DNA from: Daedaleopsis sinensis | Taxonomy: Eukaryota; Basidiomycota; Agaricomycetes; Polyporales; Polyporaceae | Reading direction: 5' to 3' | Length of the DNA stretch: 64,000 nt | Assembly (NCBI GenBank): GCA_033807695.1 | Contig: CM066307.1 | Coordinates: 2,418,001-2,482,000 of the forward strand | In this document: positions 6,801-36,532 of the stretch, piece by piece | Layout of the letters: the number at the start of each line of letters is the position of its first letter | Numbering within the stretch: position 1 is the first letter of the stretch | Position numbers and translations under genes: made by a program | The notes under the pieces: generated by a model | Seen by the model: only the letters and a program-made list of their open reading frames with translations | Databases searched by the model: none | Told to the model about the DNA's origin: nothing

Positions 6801-7362
6801 TCAGGTGAAGGCACAAGTTGATAGACACTGGACGTACGTATCACCGTTGTAGCTGTGGGCGTCCTCTCCGCGGCTCTCCGAATCGTTGCCCTTGTCGACG
6901 CTACCAGTCACGATCCCAGTGGAGTGTTAGTAGTGATCCACCTCGCATAAGCATGAAGTACACATACCGCGACCGCTGCTCGCTGGTGCTGCTGCCAGTG
7001 GCGCAGTTGACACTGTCGTTGGCCGCGAAGCTACTACGAGTCACGAACATAAAGTTAGTTAACGATCCTACATCAGCGAGGAAACACAAAAGGGACTCAC
7101 GGAAACTTATGCAAACCTAAAGCGTAGAACGCCTCGATTTCGCGAAGAACGTTTATGTAGTCTTGGTACTCGTCATGGATCTTGACCATCTCGGGTAAGA
7201 TGACAGAGTCGGTGTTCATCCCTACACCTCCAGAGTGAGATCCTGCAACGGACGGGACGATGTGCGAGACTTACCACCATCTTTCTCATCAGAGTCCTGG
7301 AACAAGAACCCAGCCAAGGCCGGAGGAAAGACCTTCAACTGCGGCTGCTGAGCGAGCATCAT
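6801..7362 (-). CDS. R1 gene 2, copy A: short unknown protein with a variant C-terminus
   Basis: Four-exon model. The start is ATG ATG at 7362 after a pyrimidine-rich leader. Exon 1 gives MMLAQQPQLKVFPPALAGFL and ends after EKDG at GTAAGT. Exon 2 gives GMNTDSVILPEMVKIHDEYQ, then LREIEAFYALGLHK. Exon 3 is Ser/Asn-rich and ends QRSR. The last exon gives VDKGNDSESRGEDAHS and ends at TGA 6801-6803. Exons 1-3 match copies B and C. The last exon does not, apart from a shared KGND core. I see no signal peptide, membrane span or known domain; the tail is acidic and polar. I do not recognise the family. The gene is transcribed away from gene 1, with about 1.5 kb of conserved DNA between their starts. 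Confidence 0.5.
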
Positions 7363-7609
7363 GGCGGAGGGTACGGTCGGTAAAAGTTGAAAGGCTAGAG
7401 GCAGAGGGGTCGGTCGCGGTGGTGCTGGCAGTGGTAGGAGAGTGAAGTGAGGCGGCGTCTGAAAGAAGCCGCGAACGGTTATATGGTCCAATCATATAGA
7501 GTTGTAACTCCGATCCTGGCGCGATTAAGGCGGTACATGTTAGCCACTCCTGTAGTTCCACTCGCCGGAGGGAATTTGGAAAACACCGCCTGGCTCTGGC
7601 TGCGAGAGC

Positions 7610-7646
7610 CCCGGGGAAGAGCGTCTTTACTGCCTACTTCCCCGGG
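7610..7646. repeat. Perfect 10-bp stem hairpin in R1, copy A
   Basis: CCCGGGGAAG at 7610-7619 and its exact reverse complement at 7637-7646 enclose a 17-nt loop. The structure recurs at 17854-17890 (copy B) and 25664-25700 (copy C). It lies in the spacer upstream of gene 2. Confidence 0.75.
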
Positions 7647-8787
7647 AAGTACTCTCGGCCCGGGATGACGAGCAATACCCAGAAAGAACAAGTAGTCACT
7701 TACTCGCTTTCATGATGGGATGAAGGAACATTACGTGAATGCCAAGCGCGCGCCGCGAACGCGACATTTCGAGTTCAACCATTCGCGCCTGAATTGGAAG
7801 AACAATGTACGGTTTACTTGGCAGAAATGCACGCGATCGAGGGTAGCGAGGGGCTAGGGCTTGAACGTTCAAGCCTGGAGGCTGCCATTAATGACTCGGG
7901 CACACTCGCAGGACAAATAGAGCACAGGCCTACTAAGCTTCTCTGAGAGACAGCGATACTGTCACCATGGGCCCGAAATAGCACCGCCTGCTCCATAGCA
8001 GTGAGGGTCCCGCCGGGTCGTACGTTCGCCTGACCTTTAAGTTAGAGCGTTCGGCGAGAATTCTTCCGGGTGTTGCGCGGACGCACGGTGACTACGGCGG
8101 CTGACCCTCAGCTGGGCGACTGTCGCTTCCGAATTGCGAACCTGGAGGCCCGTGTGCTCGTGGGTGTCAATCAGATAACAACCCTGGTACTCCTTGATGT
8201 GCACATCGAGTCCTCGACGTGCGCATGTGTAAAGCGGCCGACTCGGTCGCTGACGGACGGAATACATCGTGACTCCTAGATCTGATATTATAAAGTCAGT
8301 ACCCTGGTAAATACGACAGGAATTCAACTACGGCGCACCGCACCGCAGCCGCAGTCCTCGAGAAATGCAGTATTGTACGTAATTCTCTGTGGTCCTCGCC
8401 GTGACACGCGGCAGTGCACGCCCCAACCGTTGGGTGCGCATCGTCGTCCGAACTCCGGAACGCACCGTCCGAACCCCAAGTTTTCAGCGACAGGTACGTG
8501 TGCAGCGTGAGTCGCCATCGAGGTAGTTCAATGACTAGGATGGCTTGTAGCCAGTCGGATGCCGCCTGACCTAATAATCGCAGGTTCGATTTGGGAACGG
8601 TCCACGTAAATGCGACTGAGTCTGACCTGAGGGTACTCACAGTAGGTGTCGAGATGGGGACCGTGCTTGCTCGAAGTGCTGCAAGTGCCGCGGCGAGATT
8701 CTAGGATACTAGACGCGGCAGTCACGCATGGAGGGCGGTCGTAAACGCGCCAACCTCCGAGTCGCCGCGCCAACCGTAGACGCCCCG

Positions 8788-8797
8788 TATACATATA
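8788..8797 (+). promoter_or_regulatory. TATA-like element upstream of gene 1 (copy A)
   Basis: TATACATATA about 85 bp before the gene 1 start codon, followed by a CATCTCCATCTCC pyrimidine tract. The same block precedes gene 1 in copies B and C although the coding sequence in B is different, so it is probably the core promoter and 5' leader. Confidence 0.45.
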
Positions 8798-8882
8798 CGC
8801 GCCCTCGCCATCCAGCGTAAGAGCCATCTCCATCTCCGTCTCCACCACTTCTTTCCCTCCGAGTCTTGCTACTGCGCCCAGC

Positions 8883-9403
8883 ATGGATCCAAACTTCCGC
8901 CCTCCCCTCGAAGATATCCCTCTCCCCACGGCAAAATACATTGACCAGGACTTCGGGCTCTCCGATAACACGCCGCGGCCATACGATGATCGCGCAAACG
9001 CCTATCCCCGCGTCGCAACCCGAGGCATTCTGGACTGGAAGGACGATGAGAGTGAGTCTTCCAATGCTGCTTTTTCAGTCACCCTCGATGGCGCTCATTG
9101 GGATGTCTGGTCAGAGATATATTCTTCTGCCCTCAGAAGTTCCTTCGGCGCGTTCGATCATTCGTCGCGCATGAAGTTCTCCTTCGTCCCTGAGCTGGAG
9201 AAGATGATCGAGAAGATGAACGTCATCGTATCCAACCTCACTTTCCTGCGGGTTACGGTGGCCAACGACATATGCGAGGCGGCGGAAATTACCAGCAGGG
9301 TGTTGCCGATGCTGTCGATGACCAGCGAGCAGTGAGTCACGATTACTCTGTTGTCATTCATGTCGGAAATTGACTTGTATCCCTCCCTAGGGAGAACGCG
9401 TGA
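8883..9403 (+). CDS. R1 gene 1, copy A: unknown variable protein
   Basis: Exon 1 (8883-9331) starts MDPNFRPPLEDIPLP. It has an acidic middle (WKDDESESS) and a helical second half with HWDVWSEIYSSALRSS and VPELEKMIEKMNVIVSNL. The GTGAGT donor at 9332 joined to the TAG acceptor at 9388-9390 adds only a few residues (ENA) before TGA, giving about 153 aa. An alternative acceptor four bases further on would give about 210 aa ending RRVGDDV at 9578. I see no recognised domain, signal peptide or membrane span. Copy C carries the same gene. Copy B has a different coding sequence at the same place, sharing little beyond an N-terminal NFxPP motif. Confidence 0.5.
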
Positions 9404-9579
9404 CATTACTCTGGCAACGCGCCTGCGCAGGTGCACCCGCTCAGGGCCCAACGGCGGGAAATGGGCACTAGTAGTAGGCGGTGCCACTGCGGGGTCAACG
9501 TCATCGCTGTACGTCTCGACCATCGTGCTGCGCGAATGTACCTTCAAACTTGCTCGTCGTGTTGGTGATGATGTATAGA

Positions 9580-9790
9580 TTGCATGCTCGCTTGTATGAT
9601 GTACTATCTTGAATGAATGCTTACCGCGATGACTCGGAGAGCCACCTGAAGTCCGAGTTGGCGCCGCACGTATTTGCGTCAGCTTCGCGACTTCTGTCTC
9701 GTTGACCACGGTAAACACCGCAGCCAACATCTCTCGGCTTGAAACCGAGCGCATAGAACGAGTGACTGCTGAGTCCGAGGCCGGTGATGA
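9580..9790 (-). pseudogene. Possible gene-2-like relic beyond gene 1 (copy A)
   Basis: Minus-strand frame with SHSFYALGFKPRDVGCG leading to an acidic, Ser-rich stretch (GADSDFRWLSESSR) and then a GT splice donor. It recalls gene 2, where FYALGLHK precedes a Ser-rich exon that also ends in SR at a donor. It may be the decayed 3' part of another gene 2. The similarity is short and this is a weak call. Confidence 0.25.
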
Positions 9791-9953
9791 CTCGGATGTC
9801 TAGGGAGGCAGACGGAAGACATCAGTACCTACAGAGCGACAGAAGAGATCAAGCCATGACACGCGTACTTGTAAGCGACACTCAGCATCCTGGTCCAGAT
9901 CGCAGCAGGTTCGGGCCACTTGAATGGCCTGTTAAAAGTGGGGTTCGGATCAC

Positions 9954-10558
9954 CTACTTCAGCCCCTGTGTGCCGCGGCCGTTCGCGATGCAGATGATGG
10001 GAATCTTCGTATTCTTGATCAGTTGTACCAGAGCGTCGACGCCTCCGCCGCCCCGGCCGACACGTCGTCGACCTCGTCCATGATGAGGCAAGACTTGTCG
10101 GTGACGGTCATGCCGACTGCGTTCGTTTTCTGCGGGATGAGCCTGTGAGTGACGCGCCTCTCTCGGAACAAGGCAAATCATCTCCTGCGTGGCGTTACGG
10201 ACCAGCGAAAGCACCTTCACGAGCTTCTTGGCTGCGCTGCTCAGGACGCTGTGAGCTACGACTCGGACTCCACCGCGGGGACAGGACGGCATACGCGCCG
10301 TTCGCAGCACTCTCTTTCGCCGCCGCTCCATCCCTTTTGCACTCTCCCGATCGTCTCCTGCTCCTTCTGCAATGTGTTGGGGTCCATCGTGCTCTTGTCC
10401 GTGACGCGCGTGCCGATCACGAAGCCGTCCTCATCGACCGTCTTCAGCTTGTACTTCTCGGTCGCTTTGAGCTCGCTCAGACCAGCGTCGGCGCCAACGA
10501 CGACGAACGAAGCGGCCGCCTTGCAGGATGAACGCACCTTGGAGGAGGGTTGCCCCAC
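9954..10558 (-). pseudogene. Replication factor C large subunit (RFC1) fragment, copy A
   Basis: The minus strand carries two RFC1-like pieces. First, the end of a BRCT domain (SFVVVGADAGLSELKATEKY, KLKTVDEDGFVIGT). Then part of the AAA+ clamp-loader domain (DKSCLIMDEVD with Walker B, then VQLIKNTKIPIICIANGRG). The two halves of the AAA+ piece are in different frames, so there is a small deletion right after VSAG, and the Walker A region expected between BRCT and Walker B is missing or scrambled. RFC1 loads PCNA at replication forks in the nucleus. This fragment cannot encode a working subunit. Confidence 0.72.
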
Positions 10559-10746
10559 TAGGCCGCATTCCGACTCGGAATAGGGGGCGGTTCGCCGCTA
10601 CGGTGCTTTCGAGTAGTTTGTATGCGTCTGGATAGATGTAAGTGCAGGACCTTCTGCACGCCGGGCTATCCCGTAGGCAGCTCTCGTTGCCACGTACTGT
10701 TGCCAAGATCATAGTCAGCGGACGAGTAGTAGTTCAACAAAGGTCA

Positions 10747-12383
10747 ACGACTCGAGTCGGACTTGGGAGTTGCTCCGGAGTGCCAGCCCAACGGTCACTC
10801 GGGCCGCGGCCCGGGACAGCGGATTCCAGCAACCTGAGCCTCCGGAGTCCAACTGCACACACTCAGGCTGGCCGGGCCCGAACAGGTCCCAAGAGTGAGT
10901 ACTTGAGTCCGAGTCCGGCCGCGGGTAGCTGCCGCCGCATACTCGTTGAACGTTCACTGAGTCATGTCCTAGTAGTATAACAATTCGGGGCCTTACTACT
11001 GACAGGGTAGTATCGACTTGATCTGTAAGATAGCCTTCTAGTACCCAACCATGCCGCCAGGAAGCATGAGGATCTTGATTCGGAGAGGGCGCGACTCAGC
11101 CGCCGGGTTGCGTTCCCTCCGCTGACCCAGCACGCATGCTCCAGATAACTTGGTCGGGGTAACCGCGACCTACGGGGCGGCCTGTCGCGCGACTGTGCGA
11201 GATTGGGGAGACCGTAGGGTATCGCTGACCTTCCCATTGATGGTCTACGAGAGCATCAGTGAATGATCGTAGCCGCAAGGCATACTACATACTAGCGTTC
11301 TGCATCGTGGCAATAATCAGATTCAGCTATCACTGACCTGACACAGAGCACAGCAAACGATCCTGACCAGTCGTTCACTCGACAACGAGGAATCCAGCCT
11401 GCGGACGCCATCTGAATGGCTTGGACCAAGGACTCGGAGCGGGTTCGCGGCATCGAGACCGTGGTACTCACCTTGGAAACGTTTCCATGATCACCGGTAT
11501 TATTCCAATCGTTCTTCGTGTCCATTCGATGTCCTGAGGCAGAAGATGATTGTGTACGAGTCGACCTAGACTTCTTCTTGAGATTGACTAATCGTGGTGG
11601 GGCTTGTTGGTAGGGGATCCGAGTCGGAGGCCACGACAGATCAGCGAACGCTCCCTCGTTTGAAGTCAGTGTTCAGCGCAGGAGGGCCCGCCGCCAGAGT
11701 TGTCTTGATCCGGGAGTATTAGCAACCACGGTAGACACCGCAGGCTCTCGGCCGTTAGCAAGAGAGAAGACAGCAGGAACAAAACCGGATTTTCGAGGCG
11801 TGCCACACCCGGGCCGCGGCGCCTCCTCCGAGTCGGAGTTAGTCGCTGTTATTCCAAGCGGAGTTCCCCCAAGGCTGGTACACTCATGACGCTCAGCGCC
11901 AGGTTCCGATGAACCTGCGGCCTTCTCCTCGCGAATATTTTGCGCCCCGCTGCCAAACCGCGGCTCACTCCGACGTTCAACCGTTTGAACCTGGCTTGAC
12001 AGATAGCGCTCAGTCCATCCTCACGACTTACCGTCACCATCCTCTCCCAGTGGCAGCGTACTGCTGGCAATAGTTTCTGTGGTGTACACCGCAAAACTCG
12101 CCTTGACTCCGACCCGTACTTGCCCTAGGCCTGGTATCGACTGCACGCTCGCGTAGCATTTTCCCATCAGTTTAAACTATCATCTGTCATCCTGGTGACT
12201 GCTCCGAGCCCTTGAACCCGTATTCCGCTTCTTCCTCTATCGGCATCGACAGTGAATTCAGGCACCAAATTGTGGCAGGTTATCCTCCTCGCGCCTCGCC
12301 TCCTATAGTAGACGCCCTCCTGGATTCCAATCCTGTGAGTAGGACTGCCCTCTTTCTCGAATTGTTCCCCACGCAAAGGTCCA
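10747..12383. other. Gene-poor interval with palindromes
   Basis: I see no gene. A perfect 14-bp GC palindrome (CGGGCCGCGGCCCG) lies at 10800-10813. TCCGAGTC octamers occur near 10755, 10910, 11430, 11623 and 11829. The last 200 bp before 12384 are probably the leader of the next gene. Confidence 0.4.
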
Positions 12384-15324
12384 ATGTGCTCACATTTACT
12401 CCAGTGGAGAATTCAAACCATCATGCGGCTTTGCACGTTCTTCCACAATGGTCGAATATATACCTCGCCGACCCGTTCCGAGTTTCCTCCGCAAGGGCTC
12501 CCTCCCCCAAGAGATTCACCATGGGCAATCCCTTCCCCCACAGATGCTTGGGAAAGATGCGGATGGGGCAAACAGTGGCACCCGGAGCTTGCGCTCTACC
12601 CTACCTCCCTGACACCGACTGGAACACTCTTCCGGACCTTACGTTTCTTCCCGAAGACCGAGATTCCTCTTGAAAAACGAACCTTCAAACATCTGACCGT
12701 GTACCGTTTCTCGGATGCCGAGGATTGGAATCGCCTCGAACACTTGCTGCTTCGAGTACGACAGATTCTCCAACATCCTGCCAATATCCTGGTTGGTATC
12801 GATGCAGTTGACATTCCCGGTCCTTCCTCCGAATCATACATGTCTTGGGCCTCCAATCCTGACGTGGTTCGTCATCGGGCGTTCTATGCGCGGAAAAAGT
12901 TTCTCTATAGCGTCGCCATGATTTCCTTCGCTATTGCAGTTCTCGCGCTTCGCCCCGGAGGCGAACATGGATGGTATAATCTTCTGCTCGAGAACGGTCT
13001 AGAGGCTCATCTTGTCGACCAACTATCATCCAGTGTTATCTCCGACTTTGGCCGCGATAATCCCCGAGCCGGAATCTTCCTTGACCCATCGTGCTGCCCG
13101 TGGCCCCAATGGATCCCCGCCCTCATGCATGCGGACGTTCCCCTCTTTATTGATTGGGGACCCGTGGGGTCATTGGAACGACCCCTTGCTGCGCAGCTGA
13201 AGCGCCTTTGTCCAGACGCCCTGCAAGTGGAACAGGCACTGGCTCCCCCGTCGCCTTCTAGCAATGAGAAACCACTATCCTGGCCATGGAGACTTCGGGA
13301 AGGGATGAATTGGCTGGCTGGTACCTCACGAGCCGAGACATCCGACTCCGATACCTCTCCCTCTTTGACAGCTCTCCAGAGGAGGAAGTTTACCTGGAAT
13401 GGTTTGGAGGTGCACGAAGGCGAGCACATACCCTTTCCCCCAAAGTTCGATGCGAAGGAGACACCCGGCACATTCTTCACTCGACGAGCGGCCTACAGAC
13501 AGCACTTCATTGACTATTTCGAGTCCCCTCGTCAGAGAAGCGTACGTCTGCAGCAGGAGAGAGACGCAGGGCGCTATCTGTTTCATCAGAAAAGTCATGC
13601 TGAGCTTTTTGAATGGGACTTTAATGATGAAACAATGTCTTGGCGTCGTCGCTCGGTACCCCGCGAGAATCGTCTGAGGGTCTGGAGGTTGTACGATCGA
13701 TCCTCGAAACGTTACGACTCTGTAGCTATTGAATGGGATCTCGCCCCCTTTCTCAAGAGCGCCCGGGAGTGTACGACACCTTCCATCGGCCCACTCCATC
13801 GGGATCTCACGGATGACAAGGATCCTGACTGCATCGCCAACGAATCAGGAACCGATGACACCCTCTTTCGCGACGAGGATTATTGCCTCAACCCGCCTCC
13901 CCCGGACCGGCGTGACGTTCCGAGTCAGTCTAACGAGGATAACTTTGACGAAACTATAATCGTCGACTCCCTCCCAGGTCCCACTCGAATCAATCGCTCT
14001 GCCGCCACCGCTGTCGAGCTCGAAGATGGGGAGTTGCCTTCTGAACCGCCGGTATACACTGATGACGACCAGGAGGTGCCGAATGTCATAGATCTCGTCG
14101 ACGTCGCAAGGACACGCCATGCTCTCACGTTGGAACCTATCTCTATCCCCACAAATACCGAGCCCCTCAACATCGTCGAAATATGCAGAGTCTTTGGCTA
14201 CTACGTCCCATTCCATGGCTCCAACGTTGTATCAGAAGATACTGCTCGCGGCTCCTTGTTCTCCACGTGGGTGACGAGCATGGGCCGCCGCATAGACTCG
14301 AATTCACCACTACCAGCGAGGACCTCGTGGCTACTGCACCCGCAGAACCATAGAATTCTCAGCGAAGAGGTCCAACTGTCCGGCATACGATTCTTCCGGA
14401 TGCGTGCACCGAGGGCAGACTCGACCCATGCAATGAGAGTGTGGGGGCTACGTAATAAGGAGAAGAGATGTGATAGCCGTGGGCCTACTATCATCGCTGT
14501 CGAGGATCCGACGACAGTGCTAGCAATAATTCGCAGTTTCAAGCGCCTCGGCGATGATGTTGTACGATGGTTGGCAGGCTCAGGTTGTTATCTTTAACCC
14601 AATGTTTAAGACGGTGTTGCTGATACTCCTATGATCAGGTATCGCCTTCTACCGCATGGTCTACGCTCGGTCAGAGTTGACAGCGACCGAATCGGGCGGG
14701 GTGTCAGCAAATATACGACTTCCTCCACTTCGGCTTATCTCACGCCCTCTCCGCCATGCATTTACCGCGGACGACTATCGTTCGTATGAGGAGGCTCGAG
14801 ATCATCTGCTCAGGAGCTCCAGTCGGGTGTCGAAAGCCGCACTGTTGGCTGGAGGGATTCTCTGGAGATTGGCCATAGAGGCGGTGGTGCCGGACGTTTT
14901 ACTGGAGGAACCGGACTGCGTTTCAGGAGCGCAAGCATATGGCCATCAGCTCCTTCAAGATGGTGACTTGTACATCGGCGATGCCCTCACCCGCGACGAG
15001 ATTCAGGTCCTCATTGGAATGTATGTCGTCACTGGCCACGATCGGAGCAATCCCGACAATTCAGCCTTCCCCATGTGGTGGCCCGATCCGGCGCGATATG
15101 ATGAGTCGTCTTTGGATTACGGATGTTGGACTCCCGTGGATGAACACTGGTATCGGGCACTGCGGGAGAAGTATCGACTTGGTCAAGCCCAGCCGAAGGT
15201 GGCGAGAGCATGGAGAACCTCACTGCGCAACCGGGACAAGAGGTCTCGATTCCTGATGACGCGATCCCGCTCCTTAGCCCAAGCGTTTCTAGATGGCTTC
15301 CTGGATTCCTCGTTGTCGAGTTAA
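12384..15324 (+). CDS. Large conserved hypothetical protein (about 960 aa, two exons)
   Basis: Exon 1 is one open frame of 737 codons. It joins in frame to a 222-codon exon through a short intron of about 57 bp with a GTTGTT donor (14583) and an ATCAG acceptor (14638), giving WLAGSGIAFYRMVY across the junction. Features: an N-terminal block RCGWGKQWHPELALYP; RFSDAEDWNRLEHLLLRVRQ; a hydrophobic segment after RKKFLYSVA (ISFAIAVLAL, about residues 180-200), possibly membrane-associated; a charged linker; and a C-terminal WWPDPARYDESS block. From memory it resembles a family expanded in Agaricomycetes with no assigned function. Codon use and the absence of stops contrast with the decayed DNA around it. 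The start could instead be the downstream ATG at 12423. It lies between inverted repeat copies A and B. Confidence 0.72.
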
Positions 15325-15733
15325 TGGCTGATCAGGATACTTTCCTTTGCTCTGTACCAAGGTAGATGATAGCTGTGTCCGAATATTCGAGTCGTCACGA
15401 TGTAAACTAATGTTCTGTGACAGATATGAGCTTCCGCGCATTGGCACGTGTGTACTAAACATGCCGCACTGAGGCTCCCGGGCCGTTAACTGAATGAGAA
15501 TGTTACAATAGTACCCGGTTAGTAATGATTGCATCGCTATGCATCTGACCTGACCGCACCACGGACACGGACAACTGTGACTATGTTTCGGGAAATTTCC
15601 AGTGTGCTGGCGGTATGGCTGAGTACAGGATAGGATTGTCACGGTATGCATCAAGTTGGTACTTAGTATTTGACCGTGGCATTCCGAGTCAGCGCGGTAG
15701 GCATTCATTCAAGATAGTACATCATACAAGCGT
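15325..15733. other. Non-coding interval ending in a short direct repeat
   Basis: No gene seen. The last 40 bp (about 15694-15733, GCATTCATTCAAGATA... to ATACAAGCG) duplicate 16010-16049 and correspond to the 3' flank of gene 1. The two copies bracket the RFC1 scrap in repeat B and mark a rearrangement junction at 15733/15734. Confidence 0.55.
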
Positions 15734-15795
15734 CTATCCAGACGCATACAAACTACTCGAAAGCACCGTAACGGCGAACCGCCCCCTATTCCGAG

Positions 15796-15960
15796 TCGGA
15801 ATGCGGCCTAGTGGGGTAACCCTCCTCCAAGGTGCGTTCATCCTGCAAGGCGGCCGCTTCGTTCGTCGTCGTTGGCGCCGACGCTGGTCTGAGCGAGCTC
15901 AAAGCGACCGAGAAGTACAAGCTGAAGACGGTCGATGAGGACGGCTTCGTGATCGGCACG
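15796..15960 (+). pseudogene. RFC1 BRCT scrap, copy B
   Basis: Only the BRCT end remains (SFVVVGADAGLSELKATEKY to DGFVIGT). After the codons for IGT the sequence jumps to what in copy C lies about 735 bp further on, removing the AAA+ part. Confidence 0.65.
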
Positions 15961-16151
15961 GCAAATACGTGCGGCGCCGACTCGGACTTCAGGTGGCTCT
16001 CCGAGTCATCGCGGTAAGCATTCATTCAAGATAATACATCATACAAGCGGGCATGCAATCTATACATCATCACCAACACGACGAGCAGGTTTGTGGGTAC
16101 ATTCGCGCAGCATGACGGTCGTGCTTCTCACCAACCCTCCCCTCAGCGACA

Positions 16152-16755
16152 TCAATGTTGTTGCATCCGGGCTTGGGTCTGAGCAGCGACATACTGCCTG
16201 ATTTGCGTCCGCAACTGGTTCACGGTCGTCCCCCTATGGACATGTAGTCAGCTCATCAAACATGCGCGCCAGCTCCCCATGCGAAATGCCACTCACGGTC
16301 TAGCCGCGGCGGCGGCGATCAGTTTCTGCTCCAAAGTATTGAAGGCAGTGTTCTTCAGGGCCTCGACGGGCTCGCGAATCGTAAGATAGAAGGACTCGAT
16401 AAGCCACGCTGCCCGGCCGTGCAACTGTGAGAGCGCCGCGAAGTACTTCTGGAGCAGATAGTTTGCGTGGCAAACTTGGTGGAAGGCTCCAGCGGAATTA
16501 TTATTGATGGACACGAGCATCTCTGCGGATGTTCAGTCGACACAGCGTGTAGTCACTCATAAGATACTCACCGCGCCCCGTCATCGACTCGCACTTCTCA
16601 ATCACAGGATATCCTTCGTCATGGGCGAACGTGTCTGATTCGGGCCTTTTTGTCTGATCGCCGGGCGACGTGATGACCAGCGCTACTGGCATGGGATGGG
16701 AGGGATCGGTGAGGCTGGGAGGCTCGAAGTTCTCGTTGGACGAAGGGGTGGCCAT
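16152..16755 (-). CDS. R1 gene 1, copy B: divergent version of the unknown protein
   Basis: Three-exon model: 16755-16572, 16522-16297 and 16233-16152, about 163 aa, all junctions GT-AG and in frame. It starts MATPSSNENFEPPSLTDP and then gives SPGDQTKRPESDTFAHDEGY. The middle exon is strongly helical (HANYLLQKYFAALSQLHG, EALKNTAFNTLEQKL) and the end is TTVNQLRTQIRQYV and RMQQH. No known domain, signal peptide or membrane segment is seen. The promoter block (TATACATATA and CATCTCCATCTCC) and the 3' flank are shared with copies A and C, but the coding DNA is not, apart from an NFxPP-like start. Either the gene diverged extremely far or the cassette was replaced. Function unknown. Confidence 0.5.
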
Positions 16756-17853
16756 TGTGACAAGCGGAGTGCGTCAGATCTCGAGGATGGAGATGGAGAT
16801 GGCTCTTACGCTGGATGGCGAGGGCGCGTATATGTATACGGGGCGTCTACGGTTGGCGCGGCGACTCGGAGGTTGACGCGTTTACGACCGCCCTCCATGC
16901 GTGACTGCCGCGTCTAGTATCCTAGAATCTCGCCGCGGCACTTGCAGCACTTCGAGCAAGCACGGTCCCCATCTCGACACCTACTGTGAGTACTCTCAGG
17001 TCAGACTCAGTCGCATTTACGTGGACCGTTCCCAAATCGAACCTGCGATTATTAGGTCAGGCGGCATCCGACTGGCTACAAGCCATCCTAGTCATTGAAC
17101 TACCTCGATGGCGACTCACGCTGCACACGTACCTGTCGCTGAAAACTTGGGGTTCGGACGGTGCGTTCCGGAGTTCGGACGACGATGCGCACCCAACGGT
17201 TGGGGCGTGCACTGCCGCGTGTCACGGCGAGGACCACAGAGAATTACGTACAATACTGCATTTCTCGAGGACTGCGGCTGCGGTGCGGTGCGCCGTAGTT
17301 GAATTCCTGTCGTATTTACCAGGGTACTGACTTTATAATATCAGATCTAGGAGTCACGATGTATTCCGTCCGTCAGCGACCGAGTCGGCCGCTTTACACA
17401 TGCGCACGTCGAGGACTCGATGTGCACATCAAGGAGTACCAGGGTTGTTATCTGATTGACACCCACGAGCACACGGGCCTCCAGGTTCGCAATTCGGAAG
17501 CGACGGTCGCTCAGCTGAGGGTCAGCCGCCGTAGTCACCGTGCGTCCGCGCAACACCCGGAAGAATTCTCGCCGAACGCTCTAACTGAAAGGTAGTGTGC
17601 CCGAGTCATTAATGGCAGCCTCCAGGCTTGAACGTTCAAGCCCTAGCCCCTCGCTACCCTCGATCGCGTGCATTTCTGCCAAGTAAACCGTACATTGTTC
17701 TTCCAATTCAGGCGCGAATGGTTGAACTCGAAATGTCGCGTTCGCGGCGCGCGCTTGGCATTCACGTAATGTTCCTTCATCCCATCATGAAAGCGAGTAA
17801 GTGACTACTTGTTCTTTCTGGGTATTGCTCGTCATCCCGGGCCGAGAGTACTT

Positions 17854-17890
17854 CCCGGGGAAGTAGGCAGTAAAGACGCTCTTCCCCGGG
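17854..17890. repeat. Perfect 10-bp stem hairpin in R1, copy B
   Basis: CCCGGGGAAG and its exact reverse complement around a 17-nt loop, as in copies A and C. Confidence 0.72.
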
Positions 17891-18137
17891 GCTCTCGCAG
17901 CCAGAGCCAGGCGGTGTTTTCCAAATTCCCTCCGGCGAGTGGAACTACAGGAGTGGCTAACATGTACCGCCTTAATCGCGCCAGGATCGGAGTTACAACT
18001 CTATATGATTGGACCATATAACCGTTCGCGGCTTCTTTCAGACGCCGCCTCACTTCACTCTCCTACCACTGCCAGCACCACCGCGACCGACCCCTCTGCC
18101 TCTAGCCTTTCAACTTTTACCGACCGTGCCCTCCGCC

Positions 18138-18705
18138 ATGATGCTCGCTCAGCAGCCGCAGTTGAAGGTCTTTCCTCCGGCCTTGGCTGGGTTCTTGTTC
18201 CAGGACTCTGATGAGAAAGATGGTGGTAAGTCTCGCACATCGTCCCGTCCGTTGCAGGATCTCACTCTGGAGGTGTAGGGATGAACACCGACTCTGTCAT
18301 CTTACCCGAGATGGTCAAGATCCATGACGAGTACCAAGACTACATAAACGTTCTTCGCGAAATCGAGGCGTTCTACGCTTTAGGTTTGCATAAGTTTCCG
18401 TGAGTCCCTTTTGTGTTTCCTCGCTGATGTAGGATCGTTAACTAACTTTATGTTCGTGACTCGTAGTAGCTTCGCGGCCAACGACAGTGTCAACTGCGCC
18501 ACTGGCAGCAGCACCAGCGAGCAGCGGTCGCGGTATGTGTACTTCATGCTTATGCGAGGTGGATCACTACTAACACTCCAGTAGCGACTCGGACAACGTG
18601 AACAAGGGCAACGACAACCACGGCAAAGCGGCTGCTCACAATAACGAGGTCGATGCATCGTCTTGCAAGCACGTCTCTCGGGCCACTGCGCGGCGTCAGA
18701 CGTAA
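18138..18705 (+). CDS. R1 gene 2, copy B
   Basis: Four exons: 18138-18225, 18279-18399, 18477-18532 and 18592-18705, with canonical splice sites. Exons 1-3 match copies A and C. The last exon gives SDSDNVNKGNDNHGKAAAH and ends ATARRQT at a TAA. It is identical to copy C and very different from copy A. The protein is small (about 125 aa) and Ser/Asn/Asp-rich towards the C-terminus, with no recognised domain. It follows a CT-rich leader typical of fungal promoters and is transcribed away from gene 1. Function unknown. Confidence 0.5.
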
Positions 18706-18918
18706 GCTCTACAGGACAGCCTGAGTGCCGCGAGGTTGTCGTGCGTAGAGAGAAGAGCAATCTGGTCCCAATGTATCAGCTCCGTCTTGGAAGCGTGTTC
18801 CGATGTGCATTACAGATGTAGTATCATATGCCATAGCGATGTGTATCCGTGTTGTACCATCAGCTTTTCATGTTCAAGTTCGCGAGATGTCTCCCGGGCC
18901 CGTCCTCCAGGATTCTAG

Positions 18919-19910
18919 TGTGCCGCGAGCTCTACCTTGTTGTGGTTATGCATACATGCCGTAAGGATATTGGTCACATAGGCCAGTTGGATTAATGTGA
19001 ACCGCATGGTCGGGTCTGTATGTTCGAATCCGGCCGTTGTTCATATATTTTGCTCGGGTCAGCGTTAATGTGTTATAGCCGCCGTATATATTTTAGCCGC
19101 CGGTTACGCCAGCGTTCTCAATCCCGGAGTCCTCCCCCTAGCCCTCCTCCGTCATCATCACCGTGCGGACAGTGAGCACACAGGTTAGCCCGGCGTGCAG
19201 AAATTTGGCAATTTGCCAAATGGACGCATGCAAAGCGCTGCGTGCTCGCTGAAACACGATCTCCAGTTGTCTTCTGGCCACTTCATTTTCGAACACGACA
19301 CCCGCTACGACCGTGACTGGACGCTTGCAATGCACATTGGGGCTATTACTCCTACTGCTGCCTCTCATATCGATTTCTACCACCCTGACTGCGGTGTAAC
19401 CGTGGTCGTTCGGGCCTCAAACACAAGTCTCTCCCGTCGCATGCCCAGGTGGTCACCGCTTCGCGAATGCCTCTGGAGGTTATGTGCTGCAAGTGTGTAT
19501 TGATCGTCTTCTCGCTCGCTGGTATGGTACCCATCACTCCACAGGAACTGCATGCTTCCTGTAGTAGATGCACGCGAGGTCTGGCCCTGTGGCGACGCTC
19601 TCAAGAGCGACACTGGCAGCTGGTAGGAGAGCGGTGAGTCCTCAAGGTGAATGCCGAATTGACAGTGTTCTGACTCTGCTCTGTCGATAGATGCCTGCGC
19701 ATCACGATGCTTGGACGCAAACACGATGCAGTGCGAAGGGTTGTAGGTTTCTGTGCCCATATGTGGTAATTCAGATCGACTCGGACAGGTGAGTTTTACC
19801 CGTCACGAGCTTCTTCACCCTGTGTCTCATCCGTTGTTGTCCTCGCTGGTGAGATTATCACTCGGAGAAGGTGGCATAGTCGTTTGGATATACCTGGGGT
19901 ACGTTCTAGC
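18919..19910 (+). repeat. Repeat R2, copy B
   Basis: About 1 kb, shared with 26729-27568 (copy C, cut short) and 36533-37521 (copy D, alone). It contains a near-palindrome, ATTTGGCAA-T-TTGCCAAAT (19203-19221), in all three copies. Just before it lies TAGCCCGGCGTGCAGAA, also present near the outer end of R1 in copy C (about 22642) with only one or two changes in copy A. Minus-strand open frames occur (for example 19377-19760) but I cannot assign a function. Copies differ by small indels, including a 6-bp one near 19381. Confidence 0.8.
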
Positions 19911-20002
19911 TCATCACTCGCTCCGAGTTCTCGCGGAAGCACCTGACATTGTTACATCAAGAATATCAATGCGACAAGAATACAACAACGACAGTCGTTA
20001 CT

Positions 20003-20991
20003 TCAGACCCCTCCGTTAGTGCAAGGACATTTGTGGCAAGTGAATGCAAATCGCGTCGTGATATCACCGCAACGTCTGCATCTCACGAATAGCTGATTAA
20101 AAGTCGATTCTGGTATGCCCGCATTATGTCTTGCGTCGAGCTTTTTGAGCGATTCGTGGTAACCAACGGGGCGAGGCAGTATTCCACGTCCGGGTCTTAC
20201 TCGTGCCAATCGAGTTTGGACTGTACATAGAACTCAGTGCGGACTGAAACTTAAGGTTATCACGTTCCTTACCGTTGTCTGAATCCCGTCCCAGTCCTAT
20301 GCATAGATATGAGACCTCTCGACCCCTCGCCTGGCAAATATACTCACCGCAGCAGTCCTGATGGGCGGAATAACCTTGGCCTAGCGAATCAGCCGTGACA
20401 GTTTCTGCTCCGACGTGAGTTGTAGTCCAACCACGTCGGTGTCCGCCCAACATGCAACTCACGTGGATCGAAGTGCTGCACCACTTCTTTGTCAAAGATG
20501 TTCTCTGTCTCCTCGGAGCGGTGGTAAATTGGTTGTGGTTGATCTTTGCTTCGGTCTGCCGAGGTGCATATCACTACTTGTCACTGTGAATGCTGTGTGA
20601 GCTCACTCACCACGTTCCGGGTAACACTTTAGCTCAAGCTTCGGGTTTTTGTAGATCCGGTCCAGAAACACTTCACGAGCACGCAGTGAGCTTGGAGTGT
20701 CTTACGCAACAACGCGTAGCACGCCTACCAATGTATCCGCAACGGCCCTTAGCGCACAAGGCGACACACTCCCCAGACCACGGGCCATCGCGAAGGATTA
20801 GCACGGCTGCCTCGACCAACTCTGATGTGCCTCGTAATACTCGCGGACACAAACAACACGGGTTGCTGATCCTGTGTGTCATCCGGTGACGCCGTAGTTC
20901 CTCTGGGGGAATAGCGACACCGTTGACTCTGGTTGGCCTGTTTGACGGTAAGAAATGTATTCATTGTTTGGGAAATATGAGAAAGTTTCAC
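20003..20991 (-). CDS. Hypothetical protein with two Cys-rich motifs (possibly broken)
   Basis: Minus-strand pieces resemble a short Agaricomycete family of unknown function. The upstream piece has LILRDGPWSGECVALCAKG followed by RCGYI. The middle piece has EETENIFDKEVVQHFDP before a GTGAGT donor. The C-terminal piece has SLKKLDARHNAGIPEST and a zinc-ribbon-like end, C-x2-C...H-x2-C (VRCRRCGDITTRFAFTCHKC). Splice joins between the pieces are uncertain and some frames do not connect cleanly, so the gene may be decayed. A DNA- or protein-binding zinc motif is inferred from the Cys/His spacing only. Confidence 0.42.
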
Positions 20992-22567
20992 TCACCAGAG
21001 CCATGCGCAGAGTATGTCTCTCTGAGAATCGTATTGAAGAACTTCGGTTTGAGTTCCTCGAGCAAGAGCTAGATAAGTTTGATGGCTGTTAAACGGCATA
21101 GCGGGTAGCGCATCCGGGATGTTGGCTCGAACGGAGACCCGATCTCAAGCAGCCTTATATGCGTTACGGTAGGTCTGTAGGGCCGAAGCCGTCCTTGGAC
21201 ATGTCGCAAGTACTTTGCTACTGTTTGGGGACCATCCGAGTCTCGGAGCATGTGCGTTGGCACTTACAAGCGTCTCCTCGAGCGAAGACACACGTAACCA
21301 TGACGTAGCCCTTCCGCAAGTTAAGGTATAATTTGGAGCTCTAACAATCCACATCCAGCATGTTGTCTCCACAAACATATGCCAGCCTTACATAGTTCCG
21401 ACAGAGTCGACCGTGTTCCTGTTAGTGAGCTCCACTACACATGGGAGGTGACAATGTCGTAAGTGCAACGCGCAGCCTTGGCACCAAGTGGGCGCATTGC
21501 AAATTGTCGACAGCTGCATTATGCGCGCGTCCCTCGGTGAACCGTTCTCGACTCGAAGAATGCACTCTTCCTGAAACTCGATGCCTTTCGGCGACTCAGT
21601 TGTGGATACCAGTGCCTCACCCTGGAGATCGAGGGCGATGACGTGACCGGGCTACCACTTGCAAGATGGTTGATATAGAGGCGGAGCGATGTCAATTGCT
21701 CTAGTTAGCCCAAAGGAGGACCGCAACCTGTAGAATCAAACACACTTTCCAAGCGTACAGCTGCTTCCGCCTACGGTTCTGTCCCGTCACGCTGATTCTA
21801 TTTTATGTGACAGACCCATCATACGATCTATACTACTCCATGTCGACTCATCCACGACCTGAGGACAACGAGCGTTTGACCGGTCCACTGTCCCCGACGG
21901 TGTATCCTCTCAACATCGACAGCACGGCGATAGCACGTTCAGATGGTGCTACTGTAACGTATGTAAAGCATTGTGAAAGCTGGCTGCGTAGGTTATCGAT
22001 GACTAACGATTGTCCCCAAGTCCTACTAGAAACTTCGACCTGATGGTTATACCGGTCATATACTATACGTCCAGCGACCTCGAAGAACAAGCGACATATA
22101 TGCGGAGAGACAAACGTGACCGGGCGCGCGGTTGTCACATCTGCAGGAGATGACATGCTCGATCGGGGTGAACTAAATGTAACGTGACGACGACATATTG
22201 TACTTGACAAACACCTGCTCCTCGGCTACCACTGTTCGTTCCTTGCAGCAGCATAGAATACACGCGATCGGAACCGTTGTAGATGTTTGGGTGCCGGCTC
22301 TACTTAAATCGATATCGAGGAACGCTCTGCAAACTCCACGCCATTTTGCATATCCGTATTTCTTCGCGCATCTTTCACAAGCATCCGAAGCGCAAGAGGA
22401 TGGCCAATGGTGAATCCCTTGGCGGAGAAAAATCGGAACGGGTCAGTGCGATGTGACAGTATCAGACATCTGCGTCGTGGTCACGTACCAGAAAATGCTA
22501 GTTCCAGATTCCAGTCACAGTACTGACGGTCAACGATGTCGTCTACGGCAATTCGCTTGAGAGTAAG
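20992..22567. other. Gene-poor interval
   Basis: No supported gene. Minus-strand frames at 21069-21378 might be 5' exons of the Cys-rich gene to the left. The stretch just before 22568 ends in what may be an exon with a GTAAGT donor (22563) running into repeat C. Confidence 0.35.
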
Positions 22568-22751
22568 TGACCTTTGTTGAAATACTAGCGTCTGACTATG
22601 ATCTTGGCAACAGTACGTGGCAACGAGAGCTGCCTACGGAATAGCCCGGCGTGCAGAAGGTCCTGCACTTACATCTATCCAGACGCATACAAACTACTCG
22701 AAAGCACCGTAGCGGCGAACCGCCCCCTATTCCGAGTCGGAATGCGGCCTA

Positions 22752-23356
22752 GTGGGGCAACCCTCCTCCAAGGTGCGTTCATCCTGCAAGGCGGCCGCTT
22801 CGTTCGTCGTCGTTGGCGCCGACGCTGGTCTGAGCGAGCTCAAAGCGACCGAGAAGTACAAGCTGAAGACGGTCGATGAGGACGGCTTCGTGATCGGCAC
22901 GCGCGTCACGGACAAGAGCACGATGGACCCCAACACATTGCAGAAGGAGCAGGAGACGATCGGGAGAGTGCAAAAGGGATGGAGCGGCGGCGAAAGAGAG
23001 TGCTGCGAACGGCGCGTATGCCGTCCTGTCCCCGCGGTGGAGTCCGAGTCGTAGCTCACAGCGTCCTGAGCAGCGCAGCCAAGAAGCTCGTGAAGGTGCT
23101 TTCGCTGGTCCGTAACGCCACGCAGGAGATGATTTGCCTTGTTCCGAGAGAGGCGCGTCACTCACAGGCTCATCCCGCAGAAAACGAACGCAGTCGGCAT
23201 GACCGTCACCGACAAGTCTTGCCTCATCATGGACGAGGTCGACGACGTGTCGGCCGGGGCGGCGGAGGCGTCGACGCTCTGGTACAACTGATCAAGAATA
23301 CGAAGATTCCCATCATCTGCATCGCGAACGGCCGCGGCACACAGGGGCTGAAGTAG
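22752..23356 (+). pseudogene. RFC1 fragment, copy C
   Basis: Same content as copy A: a BRCT tail (SFVVVGADAGLSELKATEKY), then an AAA+ piece with LIMDEVD (Walker B). After a frameshift near 23257 comes VQLIKNTKIPIICIANGRG. The Walker A segment is lacking. Copies A and C share the same frameshift, so the damage predates their duplication or was spread by conversion. Confidence 0.72.
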
Positions 23357-23519
23357 GTGATCCGAACCCCACTTTTAACAGGCCATTCAAGTGGCCCGAA
23401 CCTGCTGCGATCTGGACCAGGATGCTGAGTGTCGCTTACAAGTACGCGTGTCATGGCTTGATCTCTTCTGTCGCTCTGTAGGTACTGATGTCTTCCGTCT
23501 GCCTCCCTAGACATCCGAG

Positions 23520-23690
23520 TCATCACCGGCCTCGGACTCAGCAGTCACTCGTTCTATGCGCTCGGTTTCAAGCCGAGAGATGTTGGCTGCGGTGTTTACC
23601 GTGGTCAACGAGACAGAAGTCGCGAAGCTGACGCAAATACGTGCGGCGCCGACTCGGACTTCAGGTGGCTCTCCGAGTCATCGCGGTAAG
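23520..23690 (+). pseudogene. Possible gene-2-like relic, copy C
   Basis: Same segment as in copy A (SHSFYALGFKPRDVGCG to LSESSR, then GTAAGC). It points towards the 3' end of gene 1, as the tail of a neighbouring gene 2 would if the units had once been in tandem. Weak evidence. Confidence 0.25.
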
Positions 23691-23906
23691 CATTCATTCA
23701 AGATAGTACATCATACAAGCGAGCATGCAATCTATACATCATCACCAACACGACGAGCAAGTTTGAAGGTACATTCGCGCAGCACGATGGTCGAGACGTA
23801 CAGCGATGACGTTGACCCCGCAGTGGCACCGCCTACTACTAGTGCCCATTTCCCGCCGTTGGGCCCTGAGCGGGTGCACCTGCGCAGGCGCGTTGCCAGA
23901 GTAATG

Positions 23907-24427
23907 TCACGCGTTCTCCCTAGGGAGGGATACAAGTCAATTTCCGACATGAATGACAACAGAGTAATCGTGACTCACTGCTCGCTGGTCATCGACAGCA
24001 TCGGCAACACCCTGCTGGTAATTTCCGCCGCCTCGCATATGTCGTTGGCCACCGTAACCCGCAGGAAAGTGAGGTTGGATACGATGACGTTCATCTTCTC
24101 GATCATCTTCTCCAGCTCAGGGACGAAGGAGAACTTCATGCGCGACGAATGATCGAACGCGCCGAAGGAACTTCTGAGGGCAGAAGAATATATCTCTGAC
24201 CAGACATCCCAATGAGCGCCATCGAGGGTGACTGAAAAAGCAGCATTGGAAGACTCACTCTCATCGTCCTTCCAGTCCAGAATGCCTCGGGTTGCGACGC
24301 GGGGATAGGCGTTTGCGCGATCATCGTATGGCCGCGGCGTGTTATCGGAGAGCCCGAAGTCCTGGTCAATGTATTTTGCCGTGGGGAGAGGGATATCTTC
24401 GAGGGGAGGGCGGAAGTTTGGATCCAT
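23907..24427 (-). CDS. R1 gene 1, copy C
   Basis: Same sequence and gene model as copy A: start MDPNFRPPLEDIPLP, one intron, about 153 aa, with the alternative end at 23732 giving about 210 aa. No known domain. The retained open frame in both copies may only reflect very recent duplication or gene conversion. Confidence 0.5.
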
Positions 24428-25663
24428 GCTGGGCGCAGTAGCAAGACTCGGAGGGAAAGAAGTGGTGGAGACGGAGATGGAGATGGCTCTTACGCTGGAT
24501 GGCGAGGGCGCGTATATGTATACGGGGCGTCTACGGTTGGCGCGGCGACTCGGAGGTTGGCGCGTTTACGACCGCCCTCCATGCGTGACTGCCGCGTCTA
24601 GTATCCTAGAATCTCGCCGCGGCACTTGCAGCACTTCGAGCAAGCACGGTCCCCATCTCGACACCTACTGTGAGTACCCTCAGGTCAGACTCAGTCGCAT
24701 TTACGTGGACCGTTCCCAAATCGAACCTGCGATTATTAGGTCAGGCGGCATCCGACTGGCTACAAGCCATCCTAGTCATTGAACTACCTCGATGGCGACT
24801 CACGCTGCACACGTACCTGTCGCTGAAAACTTGGGGTTCGGACGGTGCGTTCCGGAGTTCGGACGACGATGCGCACCCAACGGTTGGGGCGTGCACTGCC
24901 GCGTGTCACGGCGAGGACCACAGAGAATTACGTACAATACTGCATTTCTCGAGGACTGCGGCTGCGGTGCGGTGCGCCGTAGTTGAATTCCTGTCGTATT
25001 TACCAGGGTACTGACTTTATAATATCAGATCTAGGAGTCACGATGTATTCCGTCCGTCAGCGACCGAGTCGGCCGCTTTACACATGCGCACGTCGAGGAC
25101 TCGATGTGCACATCAAGGAGTACCAGGGTTGTTATCTGATTGACACCCACGAGCACACGGGCCTCCAGGTTCGCAATTCGGAAGCGACGGTCGCCCAGCT
25201 GAGGGTCAGCCGCCGTAGTCACCGTGCGTCCGCGCAACACCCGGAAGAATTCTCGCCGAACGCTCTAACTTAAAGGTCAGGCGAACGTACGACCCGGCGG
25301 GACCCTCACTGCTATGGAGCAGGCGGTGCTATTTCGGGCCCATGGTGACAGTATTGCTGTCTCTCAGAGAAGCTTAGTAGGCCTGTGCTCTATTTGTCCT
25401 GCGAGTGTGCCCGAGTCATTAATGGCAGCCTCCAGGCTTGAACGTTCAAGCCCTAGCCCCTCGCTACCCTCGATCGCGTGCATTTCTGCCAAGTAAACCG
25501 TACATTGTTCTTCCAATTCAGGCGCGAATGGTTGAACTCGAAATGTCGCGTTCGCGGCGCGCGCTTGGCATTCACGTAATGTTCCTTCATCCCATCATGA
25601 AAGCGAGTAAGTGACTACTTGTTCTTTCTGGGTATTGCTCGTCATCCCGGGCCGAGAGTACTT

Positions 25664-25700
25664 CCCGGGGAAGTAGGCAGTAAAGACGCTCTTCCCCGGG
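25664..25700. repeat. Perfect 10-bp stem hairpin in R1, copy C
   Basis: CCCGGGGAAG and its reverse complement with a 17-nt loop, as in copies A and B. Confidence 0.72.
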
Positions 25701-25947
25701 GCTCTCGCAGCCAGAGCCAGGCGGTGTTTTCCAAATTCCCTCCGGCGAGTGGAACTACAGGAGTGGCTAACATGTACCGCCTTAATCGCGCCAGGATCGG
25801 AGTTACAACTCTATATGATTGGACCATATAACCGTTCGCGGCTTCTTTCAGACGCCGCCTCACTTCACTCTCCTACCACTGCCAGCACCACCGCGACCGA
25901 CCCCTCTGCCTCTAGCCTTTCAACTTTTACCGACCGTACCCTCCGCC

Positions 25948-26515
25948 ATGATGCTCGCTCAGCAGCCGCAGTTGAAGGTCTTTCCTCCGGCCTTGGCTGG
26001 GTTCTTGTTCCAGGACTCTGATGAGAAAGATGGTGGTAAGTCTCGCACATCGTCCCGTCCGTTGCAGGATCTCACTCTGGAGGTGTAGGGATGAACACCG
26101 ACTCTGTCATCTTACCCGAGATGGTCAAGATCCATGACGAGTACCAAGACTACATAAACGTTCTTCGCGAAATCGAGGCGTTCTACGCTTTAGGTTTGCA
26201 TAAGTTTCCGTGAGTCCCTTTTGTGTTTCCTCGCTGATGTAGGATCGTTAACTAACTTTATGTTCGTGACTCGTAGTAGCTTCGCGGCCAACGACAGTGT
26301 CAACTGCGCCACTGGCAGCAGCACCAGCGAGCAGCGGTCGCGGTATGTGTACTTCATGCTTATGCGAGGTGGATCACTACTAACACTCCAGTAGCGACTC
26401 GGACAACGTGAACAAGGGCAACGACAACCACGGCAAAGCGGCTGCTCACAATAACGAGGTCGATGCATCGTCTTGCAAGCACGTCTCTCGGGCCACTGCG
26501 CGGCGTCAGACGTAA
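25948..26515 (+). CDS. R1 gene 2, copy C
   Basis: Same four-exon model as copy B shifted by 7810 bp, with the same last exon (NVNKGNDNHGKAAAH, ending ATARRQT). Unknown function. Confidence 0.5.
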
Positions 26516-26728
26516 GCTCTACAGGACAGCCTGAGTGCCGCGAGGTTGTCGTGCGTAGAGAGAAGAGCAATCTGGTCCCAATGTATCAGCTCCGTCTTGG
26601 AAGCGTGTTCCGATGTGCATTACAGATGTAGTATCATATGCCATAGCGATGTGTATCCGTGTTGTACCATCAGCTTTTCATGTTCAAGTTCGCGAGATGT
26701 CTCCCGGGCCCGTCCTCCAGGATTCTAG

Positions 26729-27568
26729 TGTGCCGCGAGCTCTACCTTGTTGTGGTTATGCATACATGCCGTAAGGATATTGGTCACATAGGCCAGTTGG
26801 ATTAATGTGAACCGCATGGTCGGGTCTGTATGTTCGAATCCGGCCGTTGTTCATATATTTTGCTCGGGTCAGCGTTAATGTGTTATAGCCGCCGTATATA
26901 TTTTAGCCGCCGGTTACGCCAGCGTTCTCAATCCCGGAGTCCTCCCCCTAGCCCTCCTCCGTCATCATCACCGTGCGGACAGTGAGCACACAGGTTAGCC
27001 CGGCGTGCAGAAATTTGGCAATTTGCCAAATGGACGCATGCAAAGCGCTGCGTGCTCGCTGAAACACGATCTCCAGTTGTCTTCTGGCCACTTCATTTTC
27101 GAACACGACACCCGCTACGACCGTGACTGGACGCTTGCAATGCACATTGGGGCTATTACTCCTACTGCTGCCTCTCATATCGATTTCTACCACCCTGACT
27201 GCGGTGTAACCGTGGTCGTTCGGGCCTCAAACACAAGTCTCTCCCGTCGCATGCCCAGGTGGTCACCGCTTCGCGAATGCCTCTGGAGGTTATGTGCTGC
27301 AAGTGTGTATTGATCGTCTTCTCGCTCGCTGGTATGGTACCCATCACTCCACAGGAACTGCATGCTTCCTGTAGTAGATGCACGCGAGGTCTGGCCCTGT
27401 GGCGACGCTCTCAAGAGCGACACTGGCAGCTGGTAGGAGAGCGGTGAGTCCTCAAGGTGAATGCCGAATTGACAGTGTTCTGACTCTGCTCTGTCGATAG
27501 ATGCCTGCGCATCACGATGCTTGGACGCAAACACGATGCAGTGCGAAGGGTCGTAGGTTGTTGTGCCC
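26729..27568 (+). repeat. Repeat R2, copy C (right end lost)
   Basis: Collinear with copy B until TGTGCCC at about 27568, where it departs; about 150 bp present in copies B and D are missing. The ATTTGGCAA palindrome is at 27013-27031. Confidence 0.8.
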
Positions 27569-36473: not shown

Positions 36474-36532
36474 TATGCATTTACCATGCTCCTCCCGGTC
36501 CGAGTCCTGTCTCCGCCAGATTGCTACTACTA

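Follow-up and report, generated by a model that had tools for sequence, protein, structure and literature searches.

A divergent gene pair in at least three clusters of the Daedaleopsis sinensis genome probably combines two old gene 1 types with a gene 2 and promoter region homogenised within clusters

RESULTS

Four copies of a divergent gene pair at the window locus

We analysed a stretch of 64,000 bp from Daedaleopsis sinensis (GenBank assembly GCA_033807695.1, 51.6 Mb in 24 contigs; contig CM066307.1, here C8), referred to below as the window (C8:2418001-2482000); coordinates are those of the window unless a contig is given. Repeat search and self-comparison identified in the window three copies, A, B and C, of a divergent pair of small spliced genes, gene 1 and gene 2. 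A preliminary description of this DNA had reported these copies as having near-identical spacers and flanks and had proposed aligning them base by base. That comparison bore the description out and extended the pattern to a fourth copy, D, located upstream of the window (C8:2405526-2412123) with its gene pair ~7-10 kb before the window start; it also added a 126-bp gap in B and D and an insertion in D. By the same comparison, copy A extends over ~6801-10746 (6883-10746 in self-comparison) with gene 1 on the plus strand, while B (15676-19758 and further) and C (22568-27568) have gene 1 on the minus strand. A and C are inverted copies of each other (99.4% identical over 3.9 kb), as are B and D (99.9% over 4 kb). 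We considered a haplotype artefact and rejected it, since A/C and B/D are inverted and non-collinear, which a doubled haplotype would not be expected to give.

Gene 2 is predicted to have four exons and to encode a protein of 132 amino acids (aa) in B, C and D (by the identity of their DNA) and 124 aa in A. In A, it lies on the minus strand (6801-7362; exons 7362-7275, 7221-7101, 7033-6968, and 6900-6801), with an open spliced model and exons 1-3 placed by tblastn. On the plus strand, gene 2 of C (25948-26515) has predicted exons 25948-26035, 26089-26209, 26277-26342, and 26392-26515, and shifting this model by 7810 gives gene 2 of B (18138-18705; exons 18138-18225, 18279-18399, 18467-18532, and 18582-18705). 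Upstream of gene 2 lies the spacer, presumably a bidirectional promoter region (A, 7363-8882, ~1.5 kb; B, 16756-18137; C, 24428-25947).

Gene 2 and spacer are nearly invariant among the copies. Within A 6920-7906 (987 bp), which takes in exons 1-3 of gene 2 and adjoining spacer, the four copies have one variable site. With the last exon and indels left out, A and B differ at 7 of 1795 aligned sites across gene 2 and spacer (99.6% identity), and they are 99.3% identical over A 8033-8840. Three fixed sites and a 126-bp deletion (A 7907-8032, absent from B and D) separate A/C from B/D in ~1.9 kb, and the four-copy alignment has 12 private sites (8 in D, 3 in B, and 1 in A). D carries an insertion of 130-131 bp.

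The preliminary description had also described the last exon of gene 2 in A as almost completely different from that in B and C. This exon (6801-6900) is indeed unlike those of B, C and D. A stretch of 37 bp (6883-6919) can nevertheless be aligned, allowing for 12 mismatches and a single 3-bp gap, and V(D/N)KGND is encoded in both versions. The exon looks like a diverged homologue and apparently marks where a homogenised tract ends: on the gene 2 side, the alike stretch stops inside this exon in A and continues for >1 kb among B, C and D.

Gene 1 occurs as two dissimilar blocks between common flanks

Gene 1 is of type X (alpha, predicted product of 153 aa) in A and C and of type Y (beta, 163 aa) in B and D. 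In A, it lies on the plus strand (8883-9403) and can be read either as one open reading frame (ORF; 8883-9335) or as a spliced gene in which an intron at 9332-9390 is followed by a short terminal exon. At the place of the conserved intron 1, alpha has an in-frame intron candidate of 27 bp. Gene 1 of C (23975-24427, minus strand) is identical to that of A, and gene 1 of B (16152-16755, minus strand) has predicted exons 16755-16572, 16522-16297, and 16233-16152. The stretches in which the types differ form blocks of 676 bp (A 8841-9516) and 664 bp (B 16122-16785). Between alpha and beta, blastn found no similarity, whereas within a type there were no differences (A versus C, 0/676; B versus D, 0/664), in agreement with the earlier claim that the gene 1 coding part of B is unlike that of A and C. 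The blocks begin in the 5' untranslated region (UTR), 42 bp (A) or 30 bp (B) upstream of the ATG, and end 3' of the stop codons; accordingly, the alike stretch coming from gene 2 stops ~30-40 bp before the gene 1 ATG. Beyond the blocks, X and Y units of this locus have in common a 3' flank of 161 bp (9517-9677) that is 95% identical with 7 fixed differences.

One explanation of this structure is recent cassette replacement, in which a foreign gene 1 coding segment was swapped into a recently duplicated unit between the common promoter and the 3' flank. The sharp change at the 5' UTR, the few differences between the A/C and B/D flanks (three fixed sites and the 126-bp deletion), and the resumption of a common flank 3' of gene 1 are what such a swap would leave; the evidence on its age comes from the clusters described next. 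The preliminary description had argued for replacement or selection on the grounds that neutral decay should affect coding DNA and spacer equally. This argument overlooks that, after a recent duplication or with gene conversion, identical spacers are no surprise.

Related units in two further clusters

The 3' flank family past gene 2 (18915-20132 and 26725-27568, as well as 36530-37521, where no gene pair was detected) contains a ~75-bp motif that provided a route to other clusters. Beyond the window, the DNA compared comprised C3:3110001-3165000, C8:4055001-4085000, C1:1329001-1339000, and pieces of C8 between 4083815 and 4104987. Two further clusters, one on C3 and one elsewhere on C8 (C8b), share with the window cluster this motif as well as gene T, el3 and el4, which are described below; three is a minimum for the number of clusters. 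In the gene models, transcription of the pair is divergent in copies A-C and D, both C3 units, and both C8b units.

The C3 cluster has two units with their gene 1s facing each other. Their gene 2s differ by 1 nucleotide in 144 codons, and gene 2 plus spacer is 98.4% identical over 2.3 kb, while the gene 1s are completely different. The two C8b units are 17 kb apart in the same orientation and likewise have completely different gene 1s; gene 2 plus spacer is 90.0% identical (1366 columns), decreasing to 86.2% nearer gene 1 (421 columns), and the gene 2s have 32 differences in 135 codons, with 0.076 nonsynonymous (dN) and 0.109 synonymous (dS) substitutions per site. In both clusters, the alike stretch stops ~130 bp past the gene 2 stop codon and ~170-220 bp before the X-type ATG, and we saw no common 3' flank of gene 1.

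Searches for further members were made at two levels. Profiles run against 5706 ORF pieces of the fetched stretches clearly matched only the known X and Y units. With alpha and beta as genome queries, only the window-locus copies were matched; the four C3 and C8b gene 1 proteins matched themselves and the same-type member of the sister cluster, with weak further matches on C2 (two), C5, C6, and C11 (E 0.1-5.6). C1:1334345-1335507 carries this motif next to a single segment with a relative in the C3 cluster; no gene pair was detected in 10 kb, and the site is a possible remnant of a fourth cluster.

Types X and Y probably predate the separation of the clusters

Using BLAST, the X proteins of C3 and C8b are 32.5% identical (E 3e-29) and their Y proteins 32% (E 3e-20). 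Same-type matches to the window are found for beta with C8b Y (E 8e-7) and, weakly, for alpha with C3 X (E 0.004). A profile built from the C3 and C8b X proteins scored alpha at 10.9 bits, a value reached by 0 of 500 shuffled sequences, and beta at 4.4 bits (2 of 500); the corresponding Y profile scored beta at 13.6 bits (0 of 500) and alpha at -0.7 bits (49 of 500). In the gene 1 protein tree, X and Y are split with support of 96/93, and approximately unbiased (AU) tests rejected pairing X with Y by cluster for C3 (p-AU 1.5e-4) and C8b (p-AU 5e-5). Intron 1 has phase 1 in all six gene 1 models, that of alpha being a candidate only, and intron 2 has phase 2 in the five models that have it, C8b Y being without it.

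Together, profiles, tree, and common intron phases support that X and Y are probably ancient paralogues, which descend from one gene and predate the separation of the three clusters. As judged from these sequence comparisons, C3 and C8b give firm support for two ancient types, and the window gives moderate support. Gene 2 and spacer are far more alike within than between clusters, while gene 1 is closer to its own type in another cluster than to the other type in its own cluster (less firmly so in the window).

These results bear on the origin of the gene 1 difference. Relatives of both types in the other two clusters imply that both existed before, and the lack of a common gene 1 3' flank in C3 and C8b implies that a flanked swap is not the general mechanism. 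We therefore regard recent cassette replacement as improbable: both types recur in C3 and C8b, the placement of the window types being borderline. The second proposal of the preliminary description, diversifying selection combined with conversion of the flanks, stands in part. Homogenised flanks beside a spared gene 1 recur in two clusters, but the diversification is probably not fresh, as the types are old. Neither recent replacement nor new diversifying selection is needed to account for the gene 1 difference.

Genes and repeats around the array

Gene T (12384-15324, plus strand; ORFs of 737 and 222 aa) adjoins gene 1 of copy B and has one close relative in each other cluster, 60-61% identical to window T and 69% to each other. 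Between-cluster identity is thus 60-69% for T versus 31-34% at best for gene 1. A further 20 distant relatives (26-36% identical) occur elsewhere in the genome, so that T belongs to a larger dispersed family; as the frames of five of these are exactly 774 aa long, the gene may be mobile or repeated. Also conserved in the C3 and C8b clusters are el3 (20003-21111, minus strand) and the segment el4 (38106-39593; 59-61% by tblastx).

A 620-bp direct repeat, 99.7% identical, brackets the whole gene-pair array (41156-41775 and, outside the window, C8:2388414-2389033), and related DNA adjoins the C8b cluster. Downstream of gene 1 in A and C lies a fragment resembling replication factor C subunit 1 (9957-10430, minus strand) that looks degraded; the resemblance covers 27 residues (E 0.017 to 6vvo_A), and Pfam gave no match. 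At 361-1974 (minus strand) is a Plavaka transposase piece with a weak C2H2-finger match, to which related DNA is present in the C3 cluster. More remote from the array are an acyltransferase domain with a weak dehydratase match, as in polyketide synthases (56632-58044, minus strand), and a tandem duplication of ~2.5 kb (61817-64481 versus 64852-67218 in window coordinates, partly past the right end) with pieces 70-88% identical.

In such surroundings, gene 1 and gene 2 might be orphan passengers in repeat-rich, repeatedly inverted DNA, with no role for the organism and a pattern that is mutational only. The Plavaka-type piece, the many inverted repeats, and the 20 scattered T-like matches are in keeping with this, but passengers would not readily explain open frames, introns of conserved phase, or the presence of both X and Y in every cluster even though gene 1 is just 31-34% identical between C3 and C8b. 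We consider this explanation unlikely, if somewhat less so than cassette replacement.

Searches for domains, relatives, and structures

Pfam gave nothing over its cut-off for alpha, beta, C3 X, C3 Y, window gene 2, and C3 gene 2, nor for the T ORFs. In the protein collection, queries with beta (8 candidates), gene 2 (21 candidates), and a six-protein gene 1 profile (3292 candidates) found no relative at E <= 1, in a search run without a positive control so that the fungal coverage of the collection is uncertain. Against solved structures, the gene 1 profile had seven matches (E 0.037-0.91), presumably mostly helical or coiled-coil proteins, which we do not take as homology. Strongly hydrophobic segments are absent from the nine proteins examined (six of gene 1 and three of gene 2), in which mean hydropathy over 19 residues peaks at 1.22, and the proteins are probably soluble. 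Over 10 residues at the N-terminus, the mean rises to 1.57 for beta and 1.74 for window gene 2, making a signal sequence possible. Our best guess is that gene 1 and gene 2 encode a fast-evolving partnership of small proteins. A literature search, limited in depth, found no description of this gene pair.

A divergent pair, rapid evolution, two old types, and homogenised flanks would be expected of a self/non-self recognition locus, at which X and Y were balanced specificities, mating-like or for heterokaryon incompatibility, kept by selection while recombination shuffled the flanks. X and Y nevertheless occur together in one assembly, and do so in each of the three clusters, which argues against simple alternative mating idiomorphs, and the scanned proteins have no homeodomain, receptor, HET, or NLR domain. 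This agrees with the preliminary description, which saw no domain of a recognition system: the Pfam scans found no mating-type domain, and specifically no homeodomain in the six window and C3 proteins scanned. Canonical mating type was rejected as a candidate. In a genome search covering PF05920 and no other homeodomain family, the one match is at C9:1414803, and STE3 receptor matches (24 at exon level) are on C4 and C5. The HD1/HD2 mating-type locus of mushrooms resembles the present locus in its divergent gene pair, extra copies, and strong protein divergence (PMC8305134). It differs in that here no homeodomain was found, the proteins have 124-198 aa, the spacer is the conserved part, and both types are in one assembly. 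A recognition locus of this kind is accordingly a doubtful explanation.

The wtf genes of Schizosaccharomyces pombe are single genes that make both products and are not known to have a divergent partner. We compared the locus with them under the hypothesis of a selfish killer or poison-antidote family, with gene 2 as the common antidote or partner, X and Y as two poisons, and duplication, inversion, and conversion as by-products. Near-identical inverted copies, proteins without detected relatives, and neighbouring segments with conflicting histories would suit such a family. The wtf genes are also multi-copy and fast-evolving, and their pervasive non-allelic gene conversion extends to promoters but does not take place between members that have diverged strongly (PMC6526906). 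No sequence link to known killers emerged from the Pfam scans of six proteins (nothing over cut-off) or from the protein collection (nothing at E <= 1). The single-gene organisation of wtf, the absence there of a two-type structure repeated in each cluster, and the lack of a strongly hydrophobic stretch in our proteins speak against the comparison, and we give a killer family little credence.

DISCUSSION

Here, we consider it reasonably probable that X and Y are ancient paralogues present in three clusters and that gene 2 and its promoter region have been homogenised within each cluster by non-allelic gene conversion. A two-gene unit consisting of gene 2, a common intergenic promoter region, and gene 1 would exist in at least three old clusters, each keeping gene 1 as two ancient paralogous types. 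Conversion, or unequal exchange, would copy gene 2 and promoter among the units of one cluster and would halt at gene 1 because X and Y are no longer similar enough in DNA. Less surely, X, Y, and gene 2 would be fast-evolving small proteins that act together, a uniform gene 2 and promoter keeping expression and fit matched. The degrees of homogenisation (99.6, 98.4, and 86-90%) are as expected of events differing in age, and the histories of neighbouring segments conflict, as from non-allelic conversion, with gene 1 grouping by type and gene 2 plus spacer by cluster. A precedent is the wtf family, in which genes with <55% DNA identity to the rest escape gene conversion, an escape ascribed to their high divergence (PMC6526906).

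Several observations weigh against this explanation. For gene 1, beta barely matches C3 Y (E 0.89), and the best cross-type BLAST pair, C8b X with beta (E 0.006), is no worse than alpha with C3 X. The tree comprises 6 rows and 163 of 241 columns under a simple model (LG+G4); a pairing of alpha with beta in the window was not rejected, with a borderline p-AU of 0.052, and the tree program warned that long branches meet, those of alpha and beta among them. For gene 2, the C3 and C8b proteins have no BLAST match to each other, and a profile of the two scored window gene 2 at -1.4 bits, with 665 of 1000 shuffled sequences doing as well. Its homology across clusters is judged from position and exon pattern, the exon phases being 1,1,2 in C3 and C8b and 1,2,2 in the window. 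All exon models and introns are predictions placed by eye in one genome. Repeated local duplication of gene 2 and spacer beside an older gene 1 could look like conversion. Of the profile and structure-based searches that the preliminary description had proposed, the former gave no relative or domain over cut-off and the latter gave unusable models, with predicted local distance difference test (pLDDT) values of 33.9 for alpha alone and 30.1 for T (three sequences). The proposed interaction between gene 1 and gene 2 proteins is conjectural.

Common flanks around alternative segments at a divergent promoter are also a feature of the HML, MAT, and HMR cassettes of yeast. Unlike in that system, the common part here is gene 2 with the promoter, the two types are paralogous to each other, the clusters number at least three, and we see no hint of silent versus active copies.

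If X and Y are ancient paralogues beside a homogenised gene 2 and promoter, the genome offers three natural instances of a gene pair made uniform in one half but not in the other. This would let one ask how divergence halts gene conversion and whether selection holds two old partner types together. As X and Y persist side by side, neither may be dispensable, and gene 2 may have them as alternative partners. More speculatively, and on balance we doubt it slightly less than the alternatives above, the unit could be an undescribed three-part fungal system in which a uniform gene 2 and a common two-way promoter serve both X and Y, selection holds them together in every cluster, and gene conversion maintains the uniformity of gene 2, for example, a new self-recognition or killer-antidote system. 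To our knowledge, recognition and killing genes besides mating type are poorly known in this group of fungi, and a role in recognition or killing, if true, would make these genes a new family in the group.

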